From positions 1 to 52,602 of the forward strand of contig MWZA01000149.1 in the NCBI GenBank assembly GCA_002050455.1: a stretch of 52,602 bases of DNA. The letters run 5' to 3'. Below the pieces are notes generated by a model, which saw only the letters and a list, made by a program, of their open reading frames with translations, searched no databases and was not told where the DNA came from. The stretch comes from Acidobacteria bacterium 5-1. GTDB taxonomy: Bacteria; Acidobacteriota; Blastocatellia; Pyrinomonadales; Pyrinomonadaceae. A program made the position numbers and the translations under genes. Within the stretch, counting starts at the first letter, position 1. Every line of letters starts with the position of its first letter. Shown here in pieces: positions 10,434 through 44,500 of the stretch.

Positions 10434-10859
10434 TTGAGCGAGATTGTCCGCTTCGGAGTCAGCATCGAGCAGGATTTGTTGGAGAATTATGACCGTTTAA
10501 TCGCGGAATGCGGTTATGCTACGCGCTCGGAAGCCTTGCGCGATTTGATTCGTGAAGCGTTGATTCAAAGAAAAATCGAGAGCAATTCCGACACACAGGT
10601 TCTCGGCAGTTTGACGCTCGTCTATGACCATCACGCAAGCAATCTTTCGCAGGAAATGGCGGAAATTCAGCACAATTTTCACGACCTGGTCTTGTCGGTG
10701 ATGCACCTTCACGTTAGCCACGACGATTGTATGGAAGTCATTGCTCTGCGCGGAGTTGTGGCTGATGTTGTTGAACTTGCTAACGGTCTTGTCAGCTTAA
10801 AAGGCATCAAACACGGTAAATTATTTATTACATTGCCTTCATCCGGCATAGTTTCTTAA
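10434..10859 (+). CDS. nikR: nickel-responsive regulator NikR
   Basis: A 141-residue ribbon-helix-helix repressor with a C-terminal ACT-like nickel domain. Residues 1-45 form the DNA-binding half (RFGVSIEQDLLENYD, RSEALRDLIREAL). The square-planar nickel site of E. coli NikR (His76, His87, His89, Cys95) is fully conserved as His80, His91, His93 and Cys99 in the stretch QHNFHDLVLSVMHLHVSHDDC. The start is TTG at 10434, fixed by GAGGAG about seven bases upstream; no ATG is available. The receptor gene that follows on the same strand is a natural target. Nickel binding is well supported; the DNA operator could not be located. Confidence 0.95.
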   Translation: MSEIVRFGVSIEQDLLENYDRLIAECGYATRSEALRDLIREALIQRKIESNSDTQVLGSLTLVYDHHASNLSQEMAEIQHNFHDLVLSVMHLHVSHDDCMEVIALRGVVADVVELANGLVSLKGIKHGKLFITLPSSGIVS

Positions 10860-10986
10860 ATTTTTTGCATCCGTTTTTTTCTTTTGTGCGAATTTAGTGA
10901 TTATAAGTGTTACTGATTTTAATTTCGTGCTACCTGTGCTATATTCTTATTTTCTTAAAAATTCCGGTAATACAAAAGGCAAAATT

Positions 10987-13482
10987 ATGAATATGAAGCT
11001 GAATTATAAAACTAAATTTATTCGCATCAAACTTAACCGAAATATACTGCTCAAAGCATTATTTTTGCTCATTTTTTTATTTAACTGCAACCTCCTTGCA
11101 CAGAATACAAAGAACCCACGGACATTTTCCGGCATGATTGTAACCCGGCAATTTGAACTCGTGCCGAATGTTTCGATTGAAGTTCGAACCTCTGACGGAA
11201 AATTTATGACAACCAGCGACGCGGAAGGAAATTTCAGCCTGAGCGTTCCGAACGAACCGCTTTCGGTAAAGTTTTCGGGCAGTAACATCGAACCGCAAAC
11301 GCGCATTTTCGCGCCGACCGATAAAACGGAAAATCTGCAAATCAAAATAAATTATGTTATGCCGCCGGTCAATGAAAGCGTCACGATTCAAGCCGAAACG
11401 CTTACGCCGGAAATTGAAACGCGCAACGATACAATTTATAAAAATACGCTTTTCGGGCGCGATGACCAATTGATTCAAACTCTGAACGCCGGAATCAACG
11501 CCGGACAACACGAGGGCGGCGGAAAATCTTTGGAAATTCGCCGGTTCGGTTTCAATCTTGACCACGGCGGCGTGAACGGCGGTTTGAAAATTTTGGTTGA
11601 CAATGTTCAGCAAAATCAAGCAACGCAAGGACACGGGCAAGGTTATTTGGGAAGTTTAAAATCGCTTTCGCCCGAACTGGTTGAAGGCGTTTCCATTATC
11701 AACGGACCTTTTTCTGCCGCTTACGGCGATTTTTCAGGTCTCGGAGTTATTCAAATTCGCTTGAAGGAATCTTTGCCGCAGGAATTTACCGCGCGAATTC
11801 AAGCGGGAAGTTTCAACACATATCGCGGATTTTTTGCATACAGCCCGAAAATCAAAAATGTTGACGCATTCATTGCCTATGAGCCGGGTTATACAGACGG
11901 ACCTTTTATTTCTCCGTTAAGATACAGACGCGATAACATAACGGGAAATGTTACCTGGAAATACAAGGAAAACGAAGCGATTGGATTTAAGTTTAACGCT
12001 GGACGCAACAATTTCTTTTCGTCGGGACAAATTCCGCTTGATTTAGTGAATGCGGGAGAACTTGACCGTTTCGGTTTTATTGACCCGGAAAACGGCGGAA
12101 AAGTTCAGCTTGGAATATTTGCAGCGTATTATCGCAAGGAATGGAAATCGGGCGCGACGTTCAAAGCCGATGCGTTCGTCGGACGCTCGTTGTTTGATTT
12201 ATTCTCAAATTTCACGTTCTTTTTAGCCGACCCGATTTACGGCGACGAGATTCAGCAACACGATTCGCGCTTGCAGGAAGGCGCGACCGTGCAATTTCTG
12301 AAGCCTTACAAATTTTTCGGCAAACAAGCACTTTTAACCATCGGCGGAAATTTGCATTTTAATCAAATCAATGTCGGACTTTATCCTTCAATCTCGCGAA
12401 ATCCTAACCGCAAATTTTTGCCCGAAAATATAAATAATCCAGATGTGCTTTACACTTCCGCGCACGCCAACGTCAACAATTACGCCGGTTATATTCAAAA
12501 CGGAATTGATTTTTACAACGGACACCTGCGGCTCGAAATGGGTTTGCGTTTCGATTATTTTACATTTGACGTGAATGGTTTTGAACTCGGCGGAACGGAG
12601 GAAATTAGCAGGGATGAACAGGATGGACAGGATAATTCAAGGTTTTCCTGCAATCAATTTTTTAATTTAAATTCATCTTGTCTAAACCTCAATGGCAAAG
12701 AAAGCGCGGGACGTTTTCAGCCGAAACTAGCCGTTACATTATCGCCTTTTGAAAGATTTCCGATAAGTTTTTATGCCAATTACGGACGCGGGATTTCTTC
12801 GCAAGATGCTCGCGGTGTTGTTCGCAATCCTGACGCGCCGAAAATTTCGACCACCGATTTTTATCAAACCGGAACGGCTTACAATACGCGCCGATTTTCT
12901 GCGACGGGAAGTTTCTTTTTTATTGACCGTTCAAACGAGCAGGTTTATATTCCCGACGACGGAAGCATCGAATTTGCGGGACGCTCGCGCTCTTACGGTT
13001 TTGAAATTCGCACTTCGGCAAAATTGAATAAGTTTTTGAGTTTCAACGGCAGTTTGACGCAGGTTTTGCGCTCGTTTTACCCGGGCGAATTTTCTACAAG
13101 CAACTCGCGCCGACGCATTCAAGTTGACAGTGCGCCGCACACTGTTTCTAACGCAAGCCTGATTTTATCCGAATTTCGCGGCTTTAATTCTTCTCTGAAT
13201 TGGCGGCACATTTCAAATTACCGGCTTGACGGCGAAGACGATGCGATTCGCGCTGCCGGACACGATGTTGTAGATTTCAGTGTCGCCAAACGACTCAAAA
13301 AATGGGTTGCCTTGAATTTTTCGATTGACAATCTCCTGGACAAACACTATTTTGAAACGCAGAATTACTTTGAATCGCGCACTTGCCCAGCGTGCAATGT
13401 TGCTGAAAGAATCCACGCCACGCCCGGCTATTCGAGAGCTTTTAATATCGGTCTGACATTTAGATTCGGCGCGAAAGAGTAA
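10987..13482 (+). CDS. TonB-dependent outer-membrane receptor
   Basis: An 831-residue receptor with a signal segment ending near LLAQ. It has a carboxypeptidase-regulatory-like domain (about residues 40-110), a plug domain (about 130-260, with the typical INGPFSAAYGDFSGLGVIQI) and a 22-strand beta-barrel ending in an aromatic FNIGLTFRFGAKE. I start it at ATG 10987, preceded by AAAGG, rather than at the upstream in-frame ATT/GTG codons. It lies 127 bases after nikR, and the plug has several His (DHGG, GHGQG), so nickel or another metal complex is a plausible substrate; Helicobacter FrpB4 is a known NikR-controlled parallel. Residues about 541-560 are encoded by a dispersed repeat (12607-12635) lying in an extracellular loop. 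Confidence 0.9.
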   Translation: MNMKLNYKTKFIRIKLNRNILLKALFLLIFLFNCNLLAQNTKNPRTFSGMIVTRQFELVPNVSIEVRTSDGKFMTTSDAEGNFSLSVPNEPLSVKFSGSNIEPQTRIFAPTDKTENLQIKINYVMPPVNESVTIQAETLTPEIETRNDTIYKNTLFGRDDQLIQTLNAGINAGQHEGGGKSLEIRRFGFNLDHGGVNGGLKILVDNVQQNQATQGHGQGYLGSLKSLSPELVEGVSIINGPFSAAYGDFSGLGVIQIRLKESLPQEFTARIQAGSFNTYRGFFAYSPKIKNVDAFIAYEPGYTDGPFISPLRYRRDNITGNVTWKYKENEAIGFKFNAGRNNFFSSGQIPLDLVNAGELDRFGFIDPENGGKVQLGIFAAYYRKEWKSGATFKADAFVGRSLFDLFSNFTFFLADPIYGDEIQQHDSRLQEGATVQFLKPYKFFGKQALLTIGGNLHFNQINVGLYPSISRNPNRKFLPENINNPDVLYTSAHANVNNYAGYIQNGIDFYNGHLRLEMGLRFDYFTFDVNGFELGGTEEISRDEQDGQDNSRFSCNQFFNLNSSCLNLNGKESAGRFQPKLAVTLSPFERFPISFYANYGRGISSQDARGVVRNPDAPKISTTDFYQTGTAYNTRRFSATGSFFFIDRSNEQVYIPDDGSIEFAGRSRSYGFEIRTSAKLNKFLSFNGSLTQVLRSFYPGEFSTSNSRRRIQVDSAPHTVSNASLILSEFRGFNSSLNWRHISNYRLDGEDDAIRAAGHDVVDFSVAKRLKKWVALNFSIDNLLDKHYFETQNYFESRTCPACNVAERIHATPGYSRAFNIGLTFRFGAKE
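12607..12682. repeat. in-frame dispersed repeat within the receptor gene
   Basis: The stretch agcagggatgaacaggatgg plus gacaggataa (12607-12635) shares about 23 of 30 positions with 42751-42780 (reverse complement) inside the glycosyltransferase gene. A partial inverted copy (aattcatcttgtc, about 12670-12682) closes an imperfect hairpin. It encodes the polar segment SRDEQDGQDN without breaking the frame. Confidence 0.6.
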
Positions 13483-29226: not shown

Positions 29227-29805
29227 TTAATTTTTATCATTCAACTCATTTACATTTTCTTTTATCACTTCAAATTCAAAATGTAATTCTTTTCCGCGAA
29301 AAATATAGCTTAAATACTGCTCCCAAAATTTTCGCGTAAAACGCAGAAACGGTGATTTTTTATCTAAATTTACAAAAAATTCGATGCCCAAACTGCGCCA
29401 CAAATTCGCCAGCGAAACGTAAGTGGTTATTGGTTTTAGTTTGACTTCCGTGTAAAAATCAAAAACCTGTCGTTCAGGCATAAAAGTATTGAAAGAATAG
29501 GAATTAAAATGATTGCGGTGTGTCGGGTCGTTTGCCCAATCGGGATTTGTGTAATGCGGCGTAACGAGTTTGATGCGCCCGCCATTTTTTGTAATGCGGT
29601 AAAGTTCGGTAATAAAAGCCATTACATCTGGAATATGTTCGACGACGTGGCGCGAAATTATCAAATCAAACTCGTTATCCTCAAATGGATAAGGAACTTC
29701 GCCAAGGTCGTGAATAACGTCAGCCGCCGTGCGCGGGTTGTTGTCCAAACCAATCGCGCCTTCGTATTTATTGCTGCCGCAGCCAACATCGAGAATTTTT
29801 TTCAT
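29227..29805 (-). CDS. SAM-dependent methyltransferase
   Basis: A 192-residue class I methyltransferase of the Methyltransf_11/25 type. Motif I is LDVGCGSNKYEGAIGLDNNP, motif II/III VPYPFEDNEFDLIISRHVVEHI, then ITKNGGRIKLVTPHYTN. The terminal 60 residues are unlike well-known enzymes. Substrate unknown; small envelope or sugar methyltransferases share this pattern. A perfect 24-bp hairpin stands nine bases before the ATG and there is no ribosome site. Confidence 0.85.
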   Translation of the reverse strand: MKKILDVGCGSNKYEGAIGLDNNPRTAADVIHDLGEVPYPFEDNEFDLIISRHVVEHIPDVMAFITELYRITKNGGRIKLVTPHYTNPDWANDPTHRNHFNSYSFNTFMPERQVFDFYTEVKLKPITTYVSLANLWRSLGIEFFVNLDKKSPFLRFTRKFWEQYLSYIFRGKELHFEFEVIKENVNELNDKN

Positions 29806-29814
29806 TTATTTGAA

Positions 29815-29876
29815 CCGCAGAGACGCAAAGACGCAGAGAAAGAATTTAGAAACTCTGCGTCTTTGCGTCTCTGCGG
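29815..29876. repeat. perfect 24-bp inverted repeat of cgcaaagacgcagag words
   Basis: Arms at 29815-29838 and 29853-29876 match perfectly, with a 14-base loop. Each arm is made of repeated cgcagaga/cgcaaaga words. Related sequence is in the glycosyltransferase gene at 42711-42734 and 42785-42808. It is placed between the zinc ribbon gene's stop and the methyltransferase ATG. Confidence 0.85.
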
Positions 29877-29886
29877 TAAAATTATA

Positions 29887-30135
29887 TCAAAATTTATCGG
29901 CAAGTTCCGTAATGCCGCAACGCGGGCAAACCAATATGCGTTGTGCTTTGTCCGCCCATTTTGCCAACGCTTGATTTGAAAGTTTCGGCTGTTTGCTTTC
30001 GGCTTCGCCTTCGCGCATCAGGCGTGAATGTTTTTGCTTCAAAACATTACTTTGCTCATTTAATTCGCGTTCACAATGTTTGCAAATCCAGCCAAAACCG
30101 TCATTATAAAAATCGTTCAACTCAATTTTTTCCAT
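29887..30135 (-). CDS. zinc ribbon protein
   Basis: An 82-residue protein with two CxxC knuckles about 45 residues apart, CKHC near residue 18 and CPRC near residue 70, typical of one zinc ribbon split by a charged helix (KQKHSRLMREGEAESKQ). It also has a tryptophan-rich start FGWICKHC. ATG 30135 starts the conserved part; the frame could begin earlier but would enter the repeat at 30158. No function can be named; a nucleic-acid or protein-binding role is usual. No Shine-Dalgarno. Confidence 0.65.
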   Translation of the reverse strand: MEKIELNDFYNDGFGWICKHCERELNEQSNVLKQKHSRLMREGEAESKQPKLSNQALAKWADKAQRILVCPRCGITELADKF

Positions 30136-34105: not shown

Positions 34106-34116
34106 AATCAGTGGTA

Positions 34117-34180
34117 AATGGTAAATGGTAAGTGGTAAATCAAAGAGTTTTCTTACATTTACCACTTACCATTTACCATT
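34117..34180. repeat. perfect 24-bp inverted repeat of tggtaaa words
   Basis: The arms at 34117-34140 and 34157-34180 match exactly and consist of repeated aatggtaa/gtggtaaat words; the loop is 16 bases. The right arm ends eight bases before the tsaD ATG, and there is no ribosome site between. Confidence 0.85.
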
Positions 34181-39196: not shown

Positions 39197-39335
39197 GGCG
39201 AAACAAGCATTTTATAAGGTTCGGGCGGAAAATTCAAAGCAGGAAAGCGGTTTGAAAATAATATTGTGCAATTTTTCTCAAATTAAGTAATCGGACAGAA
39301 TTATTTTATAAGACTTTTTAACCGTCCCGCTTCGC

Positions 39336-39435
39336 GTTGACACAGATAAACTCAGATATTTTTTTTGATGAAACCAAATCTGTATTTTCCATTATTTCTT
39401 ATCTCGTGTTTATCTGTGTCTATCTGTGGTTAAAT
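39336..39435. repeat. inverted repeat of cacagataaac words
   Basis: The left part gacacagataaactcagat and the right part atctcgtgtttatctgtgtc pair; the right arm continues with a further word, tatctgtggttaaat. It lies between the atpZ-like stop and the atpI-like start. A more decayed member is at 13483-13567. Confidence 0.7.
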
Positions 39436-39457
39436 ATGCTTTTATTTTGTCTAGCTG

Positions 39458-39955: not shown

Positions 39956-40183
39956 CCCAATTCTCCCGCGTCAAATAATCTTTCAGCAACTTCTATTAAA
40001 AGCGATTTGCGCGAATGGCGCAAGGAATCATAAATATTGGACACTGATTGGTTAAGATTATTTAACAAGACTTTCGCTTGAAGTGAATAACTCTGCCGTG
40101 CCGCAAGCCCGCACAGAAGTCAAGGGCGCAAACACACTCGACTTTCGTGCGTGTTTCTGCATTTCAATATCCGGCAGCTTGGT
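39956..40183. other. spacer upstream of the atp genes
   Basis: It must hold the promoter of the Fo genes, but no clear -10/-35 is seen. A GC-rich patch at 40096-40150 (gccgcaagcccgcacagaag and gactttcgtgcgtgtttctg) has two partly inverted halves. Confidence 0.4.
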
Positions 40184-41788: not shown

Positions 41789-43090
41789 TTATTTTTTTCT
41801 CGTATTACTTTGCAAAATAACGGTTTCGTTTGGCGATTTCAATTTGTATGTGATGCCGCGCCAGCAAATTTGGTTTGAGAAAAAAGCGCATAAACAATTA
41901 TAAAAATAAATTACAGGCGTAATCGTCCAAAGCGTAAGATGCGGCAAAAGACTTTTGTTCAATTGACTTTCGTAATTTTTCAAAACTAATTTAACCGCCG
42001 TCAATCTTAACCGAGCCTTGCCGACACCAAGCGCAAAAATCGCTGACAAAAAAGCCAGCGTCAGCCAAAAATGCCAACCCGCAAGCAGAAATAAAAGAAT
42101 AAAGTCCGTCCAAAAAATTGCGGTAAAAAAAAATGAACCAATAAAAGAGGCTTTCCACAGATTTGGCGCATAGACGCACGTGATTTTCATTTGGCGCGTT
42201 GTGAATTCGAGAAGTTCGCCAAAAGTGCAATCTTCAATCGAAGCAGTCAAACATTGCGGGACAAAATAAATCGGCAAACGCGCTTCTTTTAATGCGCGTG
42301 TAACGGCGAAATCGTCGGAAAGCGTTCCTTTCAGACGTTCACGCATATCAAGTTTTTCAAAAACATCGCGCCGAATCGCCGTCGAACCGCCCCAACAAAA
42401 ATTATTATTTGTTTTTGCGCCCAAAGCCGATGCAATCGAAGCATTCCAAACCGAGCGCAGTTCGGTTGAAAATCCGCCCTTTTTACTAATAAACCAGCGA
42501 TAACCGGTCGCCGCGCCGACATTTTCATCTTGCAAAGGCGCGATTAAATTTCCCAGCCAATTTTTGTTTGGTCGCACGTCCGAATCTACCAAAACAAAAA
42601 CTTCACTTTTGCCGGAAACTTCTAAAACCGCTTGGCGCAGATTATGAACTTTTTGACCTTCGTCTTTCGCCATTCCTGCGATGACGAGTTTTGTTGAAAC
42701 AGAATTGCTCCCGCCAAGGCGCAGAGGCGCAAAGTTTTTTTCAGATTTTGTATCCTGTAAATCCTGTTCATCCCGATTAATTTTCCTTTGCACCTTTGCG
42801 TCTTTACGGGAAACTTCTTCAATAATTTTTATTGCTTCATCGCGTTCATCATCAACCACAAACAAAATTTCATAACTTGGAAAATCCTGCCGAAAAAGCG
42901 CGAAAAGATTTTCCCGCAAACCTTCGTCAAGCCCACGACAAGGCACAATTATCGAACAAAAAGGCGTGTAATTAGATTTTGGTTTGGCTAATTCTTTTTT
43001 GAAAAATGCGAGATAATTAATTCCGCCGCGCAGAGATTTGTAGCCGAGAAAAACTGAACCGGCGGCAAAAAAGTAGAAAACGAAAATCAT
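41789..43090 (-). CDS. GT21-like glycosyltransferase (ceramide glucosyltransferase/HpnI type)
   Basis: A 433-residue membrane glycosyltransferase: one N-terminal helix, a GT-A domain and three or more C-terminal helices. Motifs follow the GT21 order: FVVDDERDEA (first Asp), KVHNLRQAV, FVLVDSDVRP (DxD-like), GTLSDDFAVTRAL, and RQMK in place of the (Q/R)xxRW. It may glucosylate a ceramide or hopanoid-type lipid. ATGA overlap with the upstream waaA gene indicates translational coupling. Residues about 95-127 come from a nested repeat (42711-42808) in the loop between the first Asp and KVHNL. Confidence 0.85.
   Translation of the reverse strand: MIFVFYFFAAGSVFLGYKSLRGGINYLAFFKKELAKPKSNYTPFCSIIVPCRGLDEGLRENLFALFRQDFPSYEILFVVDDERDEAIKIIEEVSRKDAKVQRKINRDEQDLQDTKSEKNFAPLRLGGSNSVSTKLVIAGMAKDEGQKVHNLRQAVLEVSGKSEVFVLVDSDVRPNKNWLGNLIAPLQDENVGAATGYRWFISKKGGFSTELRSVWNASIASALGAKTNNNFCWGGSTAIRRDVFEKLDMRERLKGTLSDDFAVTRALKEARLPIYFVPQCLTASIEDCTFGELLEFTTRQMKITCVYAPNLWKASFIGSFFFTAIFWTDFILLFLLAGWHFWLTLAFLSAIFALGVGKARLRLTAVKLVLKNYESQLNKSLLPHLTLWTITPVIYFYNCLCAFFSNQICWRGITYKLKSPNETVILQSNTRKK
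42711..42808. repeat. nested repeat element translated inside the glycosyltransferase
   Basis: Outer arms 42711-42734 (ccgccaaggcgcagaggcgc...) and 42785-42808 (cctttgcacctttgcgtctt...) are inverted copies of the family seen at 29815-29876. Between them, 42751-42780 (tatcctgtaaatcctgttca...) belongs to the aacaggat family seen in the receptor gene at 12607. All of it is read through in frame. Confidence 0.75.
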
Positions 43091-44411: not shown

Positions 44412-44500
44412 TGATAGGTGAAAGGTGAAAAGTGATAACTAATAGGTGATAGGTAAGAATTTATCTTATTTTTCATTTCTTTTCACTTTTCACTTCACTC
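44412..44500. repeat. inverted repeat of gtgaaaagtg words between efp and waaA
   Basis: The left part (aggtgaaaggtgaaaagtg, plus aggtgataggtaag) and the right part (ttttcacttttcacttcac) are inverted. The right arm covers the efp stop codon, and the left arm ends three bases from the waaA ATG. Confidence 0.7.

Follow-up and report, generated by a model that had tools for sequence, protein, structure and literature searches.

Two dispersed repeat families very probably built an expanded in-frame loop in a Pyrinomonadaceae glycosyltransferase

A gene for a GT21/GT2-type glycosyltransferase (41789–43090, minus strand, 433 aa) in the 52,602-nt stretch of DNA analysed here (the window) carries a repeat-derived segment that is predicted to be read as protein. 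How did such a segment arise, and how does an enzyme come to accommodate it? At its core lies an imperfect inverted repeat (42709–42811) with 26-nt arms, 81% complementary, and an interior of 51 nt. Both arms match one repeat family, A. On the coding strand the 5′ arm (42786–42811, minus) reads SRKDAKVQ, and the 3′ arm (42709–42734, plus) reads FAPLRLGG. Between them is a half element of a second family, B (the aacaggat type; 42752–42777, minus, 2 mismatches to the pattern), which reads RDEQDLQD and is 85% like a copy at 12602–12634 of the window over 33 nt and 88% like another at G000:C223:28073–28112. The coding (minus) strand, with EEVSRKDAKVQRKINRDEQDLQDTKSEKNFAPLRLGGSNSVST, lies inside the open 433-aa ORF, and the composite would translate as SRKDAKVQRK-IN-RDEQDLQD-TKSEKN-FAPLRLGG. 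The sequence-only reading had described an inverted repeat with 24-base arms that encloses a copy of another family and is read in frame within a glycosyltransferase. This description is borne out: the 24-nt arms fall within the 26-nt arms, both families are dispersed, and the open ORF matches glycosyltransferase Pfam profiles on the flanks of the segment. The in-frame reading of a 98-base composite also stands but its length does not, as 98 is not a multiple of three and the loop exceeds that of the closest relative by a net 96 bp. Similarly, of the proposal that a repeat entered a repeat, the position of B inside A arms holds, but B probably came in with the second arm and not necessarily into a complete A palindrome.

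The host protein belongs to GT21/GT2 by its GT-A motifs and by flanks that score above the Pfam cut-off for Glyco_transf_21 (PF13506), Glyco_tranf_2_3 (PF13641) and Glycos_transf_2 (PF00535); its nearest solved relative is ceramide glucosyltransferase (E 5e-9). In a scan of named genomes with the protein, all matches came from Acidobacteria/Pyrinomonadaceae MAGs, JACCYR01 being the nearest, and the host is accordingly taken to be an uncultured member of this family. Purifying selection acts on the gene outside the loop (dN/dS 0.19, dS 0.24, dN 0.046, relative to the closest relative, G007). The loop lies in the GT-A core after helix alpha-2 (DEAIKIIEEV) and before beta-3 (KLVIAG). A predicted structure places the insert between a helix (85–109) and a strand (131–137), with the lowest pLDDT at 103–130; since this model is of low confidence (mean pLDDT 53, only 5 sequences), the loop position leans chiefly on GT-A topology and the alignment.

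Family A (CGCAAAGRCGCAAAG; also written CGCAAAGRCGCAAAGRCGCAAAG) has 58 arm matches in the window's own genome (G000, a 3.21-Mb assembly), searched with a 23-mer at up to 3 mismatches, and family B (ACAGGATNNACAGGAT; also written AACAGGATNNACAGGATNNACAGGAT) has 35, searched with a 26-mer at the same limit. Controls with reversed patterns gave 0 for each, so neither set of matches is due to chance. The ends of A are TTTCCCGC...GCGGGAAA and those of B are AACAGGAT...ATCCTGTT. Across the phylum, A is patchy, being present in 28 of 297 sampled genomes, with a maximum of 64 arms in one and zero in most. Oligonucleotides of A, B and a further family, C, were not found in the bacterial literature searched, the sole match (PMC11183047) being satellite DNA at human centromeres. 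No reading frame of the six is closed by the A arm and only one by the B arm (five of six open), which means that insertions with a length that is a multiple of three rarely bring stops, and selection can retain those that land in surface loops.

Comparison with G007, in which the syntenic contigs are 89–91% identical to the window, gives a loop that is 96 bp (32 codons) longer in the window, and the 3′ arm is missing in this relative. Pairwise alignment with its contig C49 puts the net insertion at 42695–42790 (minus strand), the exact position of these borders being dependent on the alignment. More remote congeners (G003, G004, G005 and G008) are likewise short-looped; both flanks align throughout the more remote congeners and other genera, where loops are mostly short, and outgroups have a plain short loop. 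The residues of the insert are not conserved, and its content and length vary among relatives. It had been anticipated from the sequence that flanks would align while the segment would be absent or of different length in orthologues, and this is what is seen across the Pyrinomonadaceae, where the segment is missing or of other length or content; its conservation in all orthologues, named in advance as the refuting case, is excluded.

The short loops do carry a vestige of the repeat. One A-like arm is present at the same codons in five congeners (G003, G004, G005, G007 and G008), reading SR[KQ]G[AV]K and matching the 42786–42811 arm in position; that of G007 is TCACGCCAAGGCGCAAAGAACGCAAAG. Shuffled loops gave 0 matches in 3000 trials in the three congeners tested. 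Presence in five congeners, together with shuffles that never match, suggests that the loop probably held a lone arm ancestrally. None of the relatives compared has a trace of B combined with the second arm, and the two are probably a later gain in the window's lineage. The likely order of events is thus one arm first, with B plus the second, inverted arm afterwards. A single-gene tree is compatible with one origin of the A arm among its carriers and equally with several.

Other repeats occupy this loop elsewhere in the family. In a genome of another genus (G015, with 37 B arms), the orthologous loop holds a B copy, AACAGGATGTACAGGATGAACTGGAT, with 1 mismatch, read as KQDVQDELDG and matched in 0 of 3000 shuffles. 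In the congener G001 it holds an array of AATGGAA heptamers (AATGGAAAATGGAAAATGG, read as NGKWKMENGK), a family that is dispersed in other congeners and, at a strict threshold, confined to this gene in G001. A further Pyrinomonadaceae genome (JALHNX01, L082) has a complete A palindrome there, CGCAAAGACCCAGAGGCGCAG...TCTTTGCGTCTTTGCG, read as QRKDPEAQR...ASLRLCV. Judged from these alignments, the glycosyltransferase loop is a repeatedly used site and not the scene of a single event.

Nor is the glycosyltransferase the only protein concerned. Copies of A and B, examined in the stretches around their matches, are mostly intergenic, and several are in frame in long ORFs, most of these with a known protein family. 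The same phrases, which the sequence-only reading had suggested looking for in unrelated proteins, occur in the hinge of an SMC protein (SAKTQRRK; C154:451, L086:451-517), in a PMT-like mannosyltransferase with two A copies (SRQDAKAQ; C142:27687-29276, L093) and in a TonB-dependent receptor, where the B copy at 12602–12634 (plus strand, gene within 10852–13479) reads SRDEQDGQDN. A membrane protein without a Pfam match has another in-frame copy (C163:14018). Orthologues were compared for the GT21, SMC and PMT-like proteins, and the TonB receptor and others were assessed by reading frame only. Depending on the species, the SMC hinge loop carries A arms or arrays of GGACAAA, GACCAAA, ACGAATT, CAAATCG, TTCAAAG or GAGAGTT (orthologues L145-L151), with 8 tandem arrays per 1,155 nt in the hinge loop vs 1 per 34,029 nt outside it. 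In the PMT-like protein, all 8 of 8 congeners have arrays of 7–9-mer repeats in one or both of two loops (orthologues L163-L169). Several families occur there at the same site, and G000 and G007, which are sister species, share none of the families found at these places. The two loops have 10 arrays per 1,812 nt vs 9 per 11,511 nt for the rest of the gene, where some of the arrays are located near the 5′ end or in a third loop.

As a separate observation, four exported proteins have a putative signal peptide, judged by eye, that is made in part of the A arm read in its hydrophobic frame (LCVFAPLR / ASLRLCV): L088 (C162:20984), L092 (C40:2989-3114), L104 (C142:22065) and L109 (C27:1670). Such N-terminal cases should be read with care, since the start codon may have been wrongly placed, as has also been pointed out for REPs (PMC3733652). 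In the protein at C162:20984, no ATG separates the repeat from the region where the PIG-L domain starts.

The explanation that we consider very probable is that two dispersed repeat families make up the segment, accumulated in an insertion-tolerant loop of a housekeeping enzyme through dispersal, replacement or nesting, and purifying selection. An A-type arm would have entered the glycosyltransferase loop early in the genus; a copy of B and another A arm, in inverted orientation, would have been added in the window's lineage, jointly a multiple of three bases. The protein would have stayed in frame, with its active-site motifs kept, because neither family has stops in more than one of its reading frames. 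Loops of the glycosyltransferase, the SMC hinge and the PMT-like mannosyltransferase would have been entered repeatedly by other families as well. Three processes are envisaged: (i) short, hairpin-forming, non-autonomous elements would be dispersed by some activity; (ii) sites that hold repeats would undergo frequent loss, replacement and nesting; and (iii) purifying selection would remove all copies but those that are in frame and in permissive loops. When orthologues are compared, the result of the second process is evident, in that related species fill one site with different families, and so is the intact, conserved frame of the third; the dispersal itself and the way in which replacement happens are what we infer.

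Nesting itself recurs, with at least six cases of one known family inside the palindrome of another: B lies within A at C147 and C223, an AATGGAA palindrome within A at C40, family C within A at C142, and B within C at C165 and C177. The A interiors found total ∼1.25 kb, and a hand estimate with ∼26 B loci placed at random gives ∼0.01 expected nestings of A with B, or roughly 0.1 if only intergenic DNA is counted. The two cases seen, set against ∼0.01–0.1 expected, suggest a preference of the repeats for resident repeats as targets, small as the numbers are. A stronger version of events, which we hold to be less likely than not, would make certain loops of core proteins in this genus into docking sites, with active in-frame exchange of palindromic families between closely related species and a mobiliser of small elements that is not a RAYT. 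Nesting would then occur because the hairpin loops of resident repeats are preferred targets. If true, this would amount to a new system of small elements that is not RAYT-based.

An unlikely alternative to stepwise accumulation is that the ancestor of the genus already had the full composite, of which deletion between units left one arm in the other species, so that no recent insertion took place. The A-like arms that remain at one site in five congeners would fit such trimming, tandem and inverted repeats are easily deleted, and the loop of L082 holds a full A palindrome. However, several independent trimmings would be required, including one in the sister species G007, and there is neither a trace of B plus the second arm in relatives nor anything but a plain, short loop in the outgroup.

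That the arrays were instead made in place by replication slippage in low-constraint loops, with family likeness due to convergence, is improbable. It would agree with the tandem units of 7–10 nt and with the variation of unit number between loops, but the same units recur dispersed across the genome and the genus, often as inverted pairs. In addition, four A elements (L095, L097, L107 and L142) have in common an inner non-repetitive sequence (AAATAAACTTAAAGAGCGTGTTTTGAC type, in either orientation), which shows that whole A elements have been copied.

Copying raises the matter of how the elements move. The genus has RAYT genes, with matches to PF01797 (Y1 tyrosine transposase) in 7 of 8 searched genomes, and one A-like arm lies ∼96 bp from the RAYT of G007. 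Movement of A and B by these transposases, which would make the two families REP/REPIN, is nevertheless very doubtful: that arm is the only one among 20 PF01797 loci, B is at 0 of 20, several RAYTs are flanked by a different repeat of the CCGTCAGCTTGCTGCGG type, and the sole RAYT found in G000, whose assembly is 79% complete, is broken (two matches with a stop, C213:28032-28392, L143). The CCGTCAGCTTGCTGCGG-type repeats near L143 are themselves likely to be the true REP of the genus. Carriage by phages or plasmids was also rejected, family A being rare in both: matches were few and scattered (61 and 24 stretches among 2.9 million viral contigs), and plasmids gave only 1 and 2 weak matches. Dispersal of the A[B]A composite as one unit was rejected as well, as BLAST over 60 genomes of the family gave no second full copy, only single-arm or B matches. 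Inverted arms are present at the glycosyltransferase site, the alignment of G000 with G007 gives no clear target-site duplication there, and no mobilising enzyme was found.

Elsewhere in the window, G000 and G007 have intergenic palindromes of different family or variant at three matching syntenic positions (29799–29892, 34110–34180 and 44446–44463). Two further differences from G007 were noted. A 175-bp element with CACAGAT inverted arms (39283–39457) is cleanly missing in that species, with a possible 3-bp TTA duplication. A 185-bp insertion (39979–40163) ends in what is another dispersed repeat (about 40099–40164), with matches of 83–97% to several other places in G007.

The least credible proposal, that the insertion is a functional (regulatory or binding) loop under positive selection, could appeal to the maintained frame and to a strong predicted hairpin in the mRNA (coding-strand fold −36.5 kcal/mol vs a shuffled mean of −23.4, z = −3.8), but the varying content and length, the unconserved residues and the several relatives that do well without the segment speak against it, and a useful role for the inserted peptide is not indicated.

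The case has a wider bearing. Rickettsia offers the best-known instances of selfish repeats that invade proteins in frame, and here such invasion occurs in a probably free-living lineage and in several core genes. Orthologues at graded distances document one and the same codon position without the repeat, with it and with another in its place, so it becomes testable whether such inserts are new protein segments or tolerated clutter, and what moves short repeats that lack a transposase. Loop length variation in these proteins is repeat-driven, which calls for caution in its interpretation.

Several known systems resemble A and B in part. The two families behave in the manner of Rickettsia palindromic elements (RPE) and intragenic REPs but are assigned to neither, given their other sequences and the different repeat found beside the RAYTs of the genus. 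The STRRs of cyanobacteria are dispersed arrays of 7-nt units. Heptameric dispersed repeats of Xanthomonas and Nostoc are arrays of 7-nt units too, sometimes as inverted pairs and mostly intergenic (PMC4692102). Unlike these, the present repeats are not G-rich quadruplex units, comprise many different units in one genus and are used inside protein loops. Enterobacterial ERIC and RU are small repeats that can be in frame in ORFs, one of them as part of a signal peptide (Delihas 2007, PMC2759123); in-frame reading is common to both, but those elements are longer (103–168 bp), MITE-like and of other sequence. REPINs (Bertels and Rainey 2011, PMC3116915) occur as inverted doublets and singlets with hairpin potential, and have been seen inserted inside or beside elements already present. 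A and B likewise form inverted doublets with hairpin potential plus singlets, whereas an association with RAYTs was not found for either and the single arm is not itself a palindrome.

The intragenic GTAG/CGTC REPs, known from many bacteria, are dispersed, single or as inverted dimers, and lie within ORFs that include DNA-repair genes; two Xanthomonas species carry different ones at nearly the same position of recB (Di Nocera et al. 2013, PMC3733652). A and B are similarly short, dispersed, single or inverted, and within ORFs. Their arms, however, are tandem 8–9-mers and not tagged hairpins, their ends when read directly have no GTAG or CGTC tag, no linked transposase was found, and one and the same loop is occupied in many species by unrelated families. 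RPE, as described in the review PMC10969869 after Ogata et al. (2000, 2002), are short palindromic repeats of several families, in frame in unrelated housekeeping genes and translated. A and B are also several palindromic families in frame in unrelated genes, here known from reading frames, and the in-frame repeats are missing from orthologues of the GT21, SMC and PMT-like proteins. RPE are ∼150 bp with a conserved peptide, whereas A and B have arms of ∼26–30 nt made of 8- to 10-nt units, their insert peptides vary by frame and family, and their elements are nested; the sequences also appear to differ, as far as this can be judged from published descriptions. A further difference from RPE is that related species have different families at one site. 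Relative to all of these systems, what is added is other families, a transposase linkage that was not found, nesting within one coding segment, and varied families at the same codon position.
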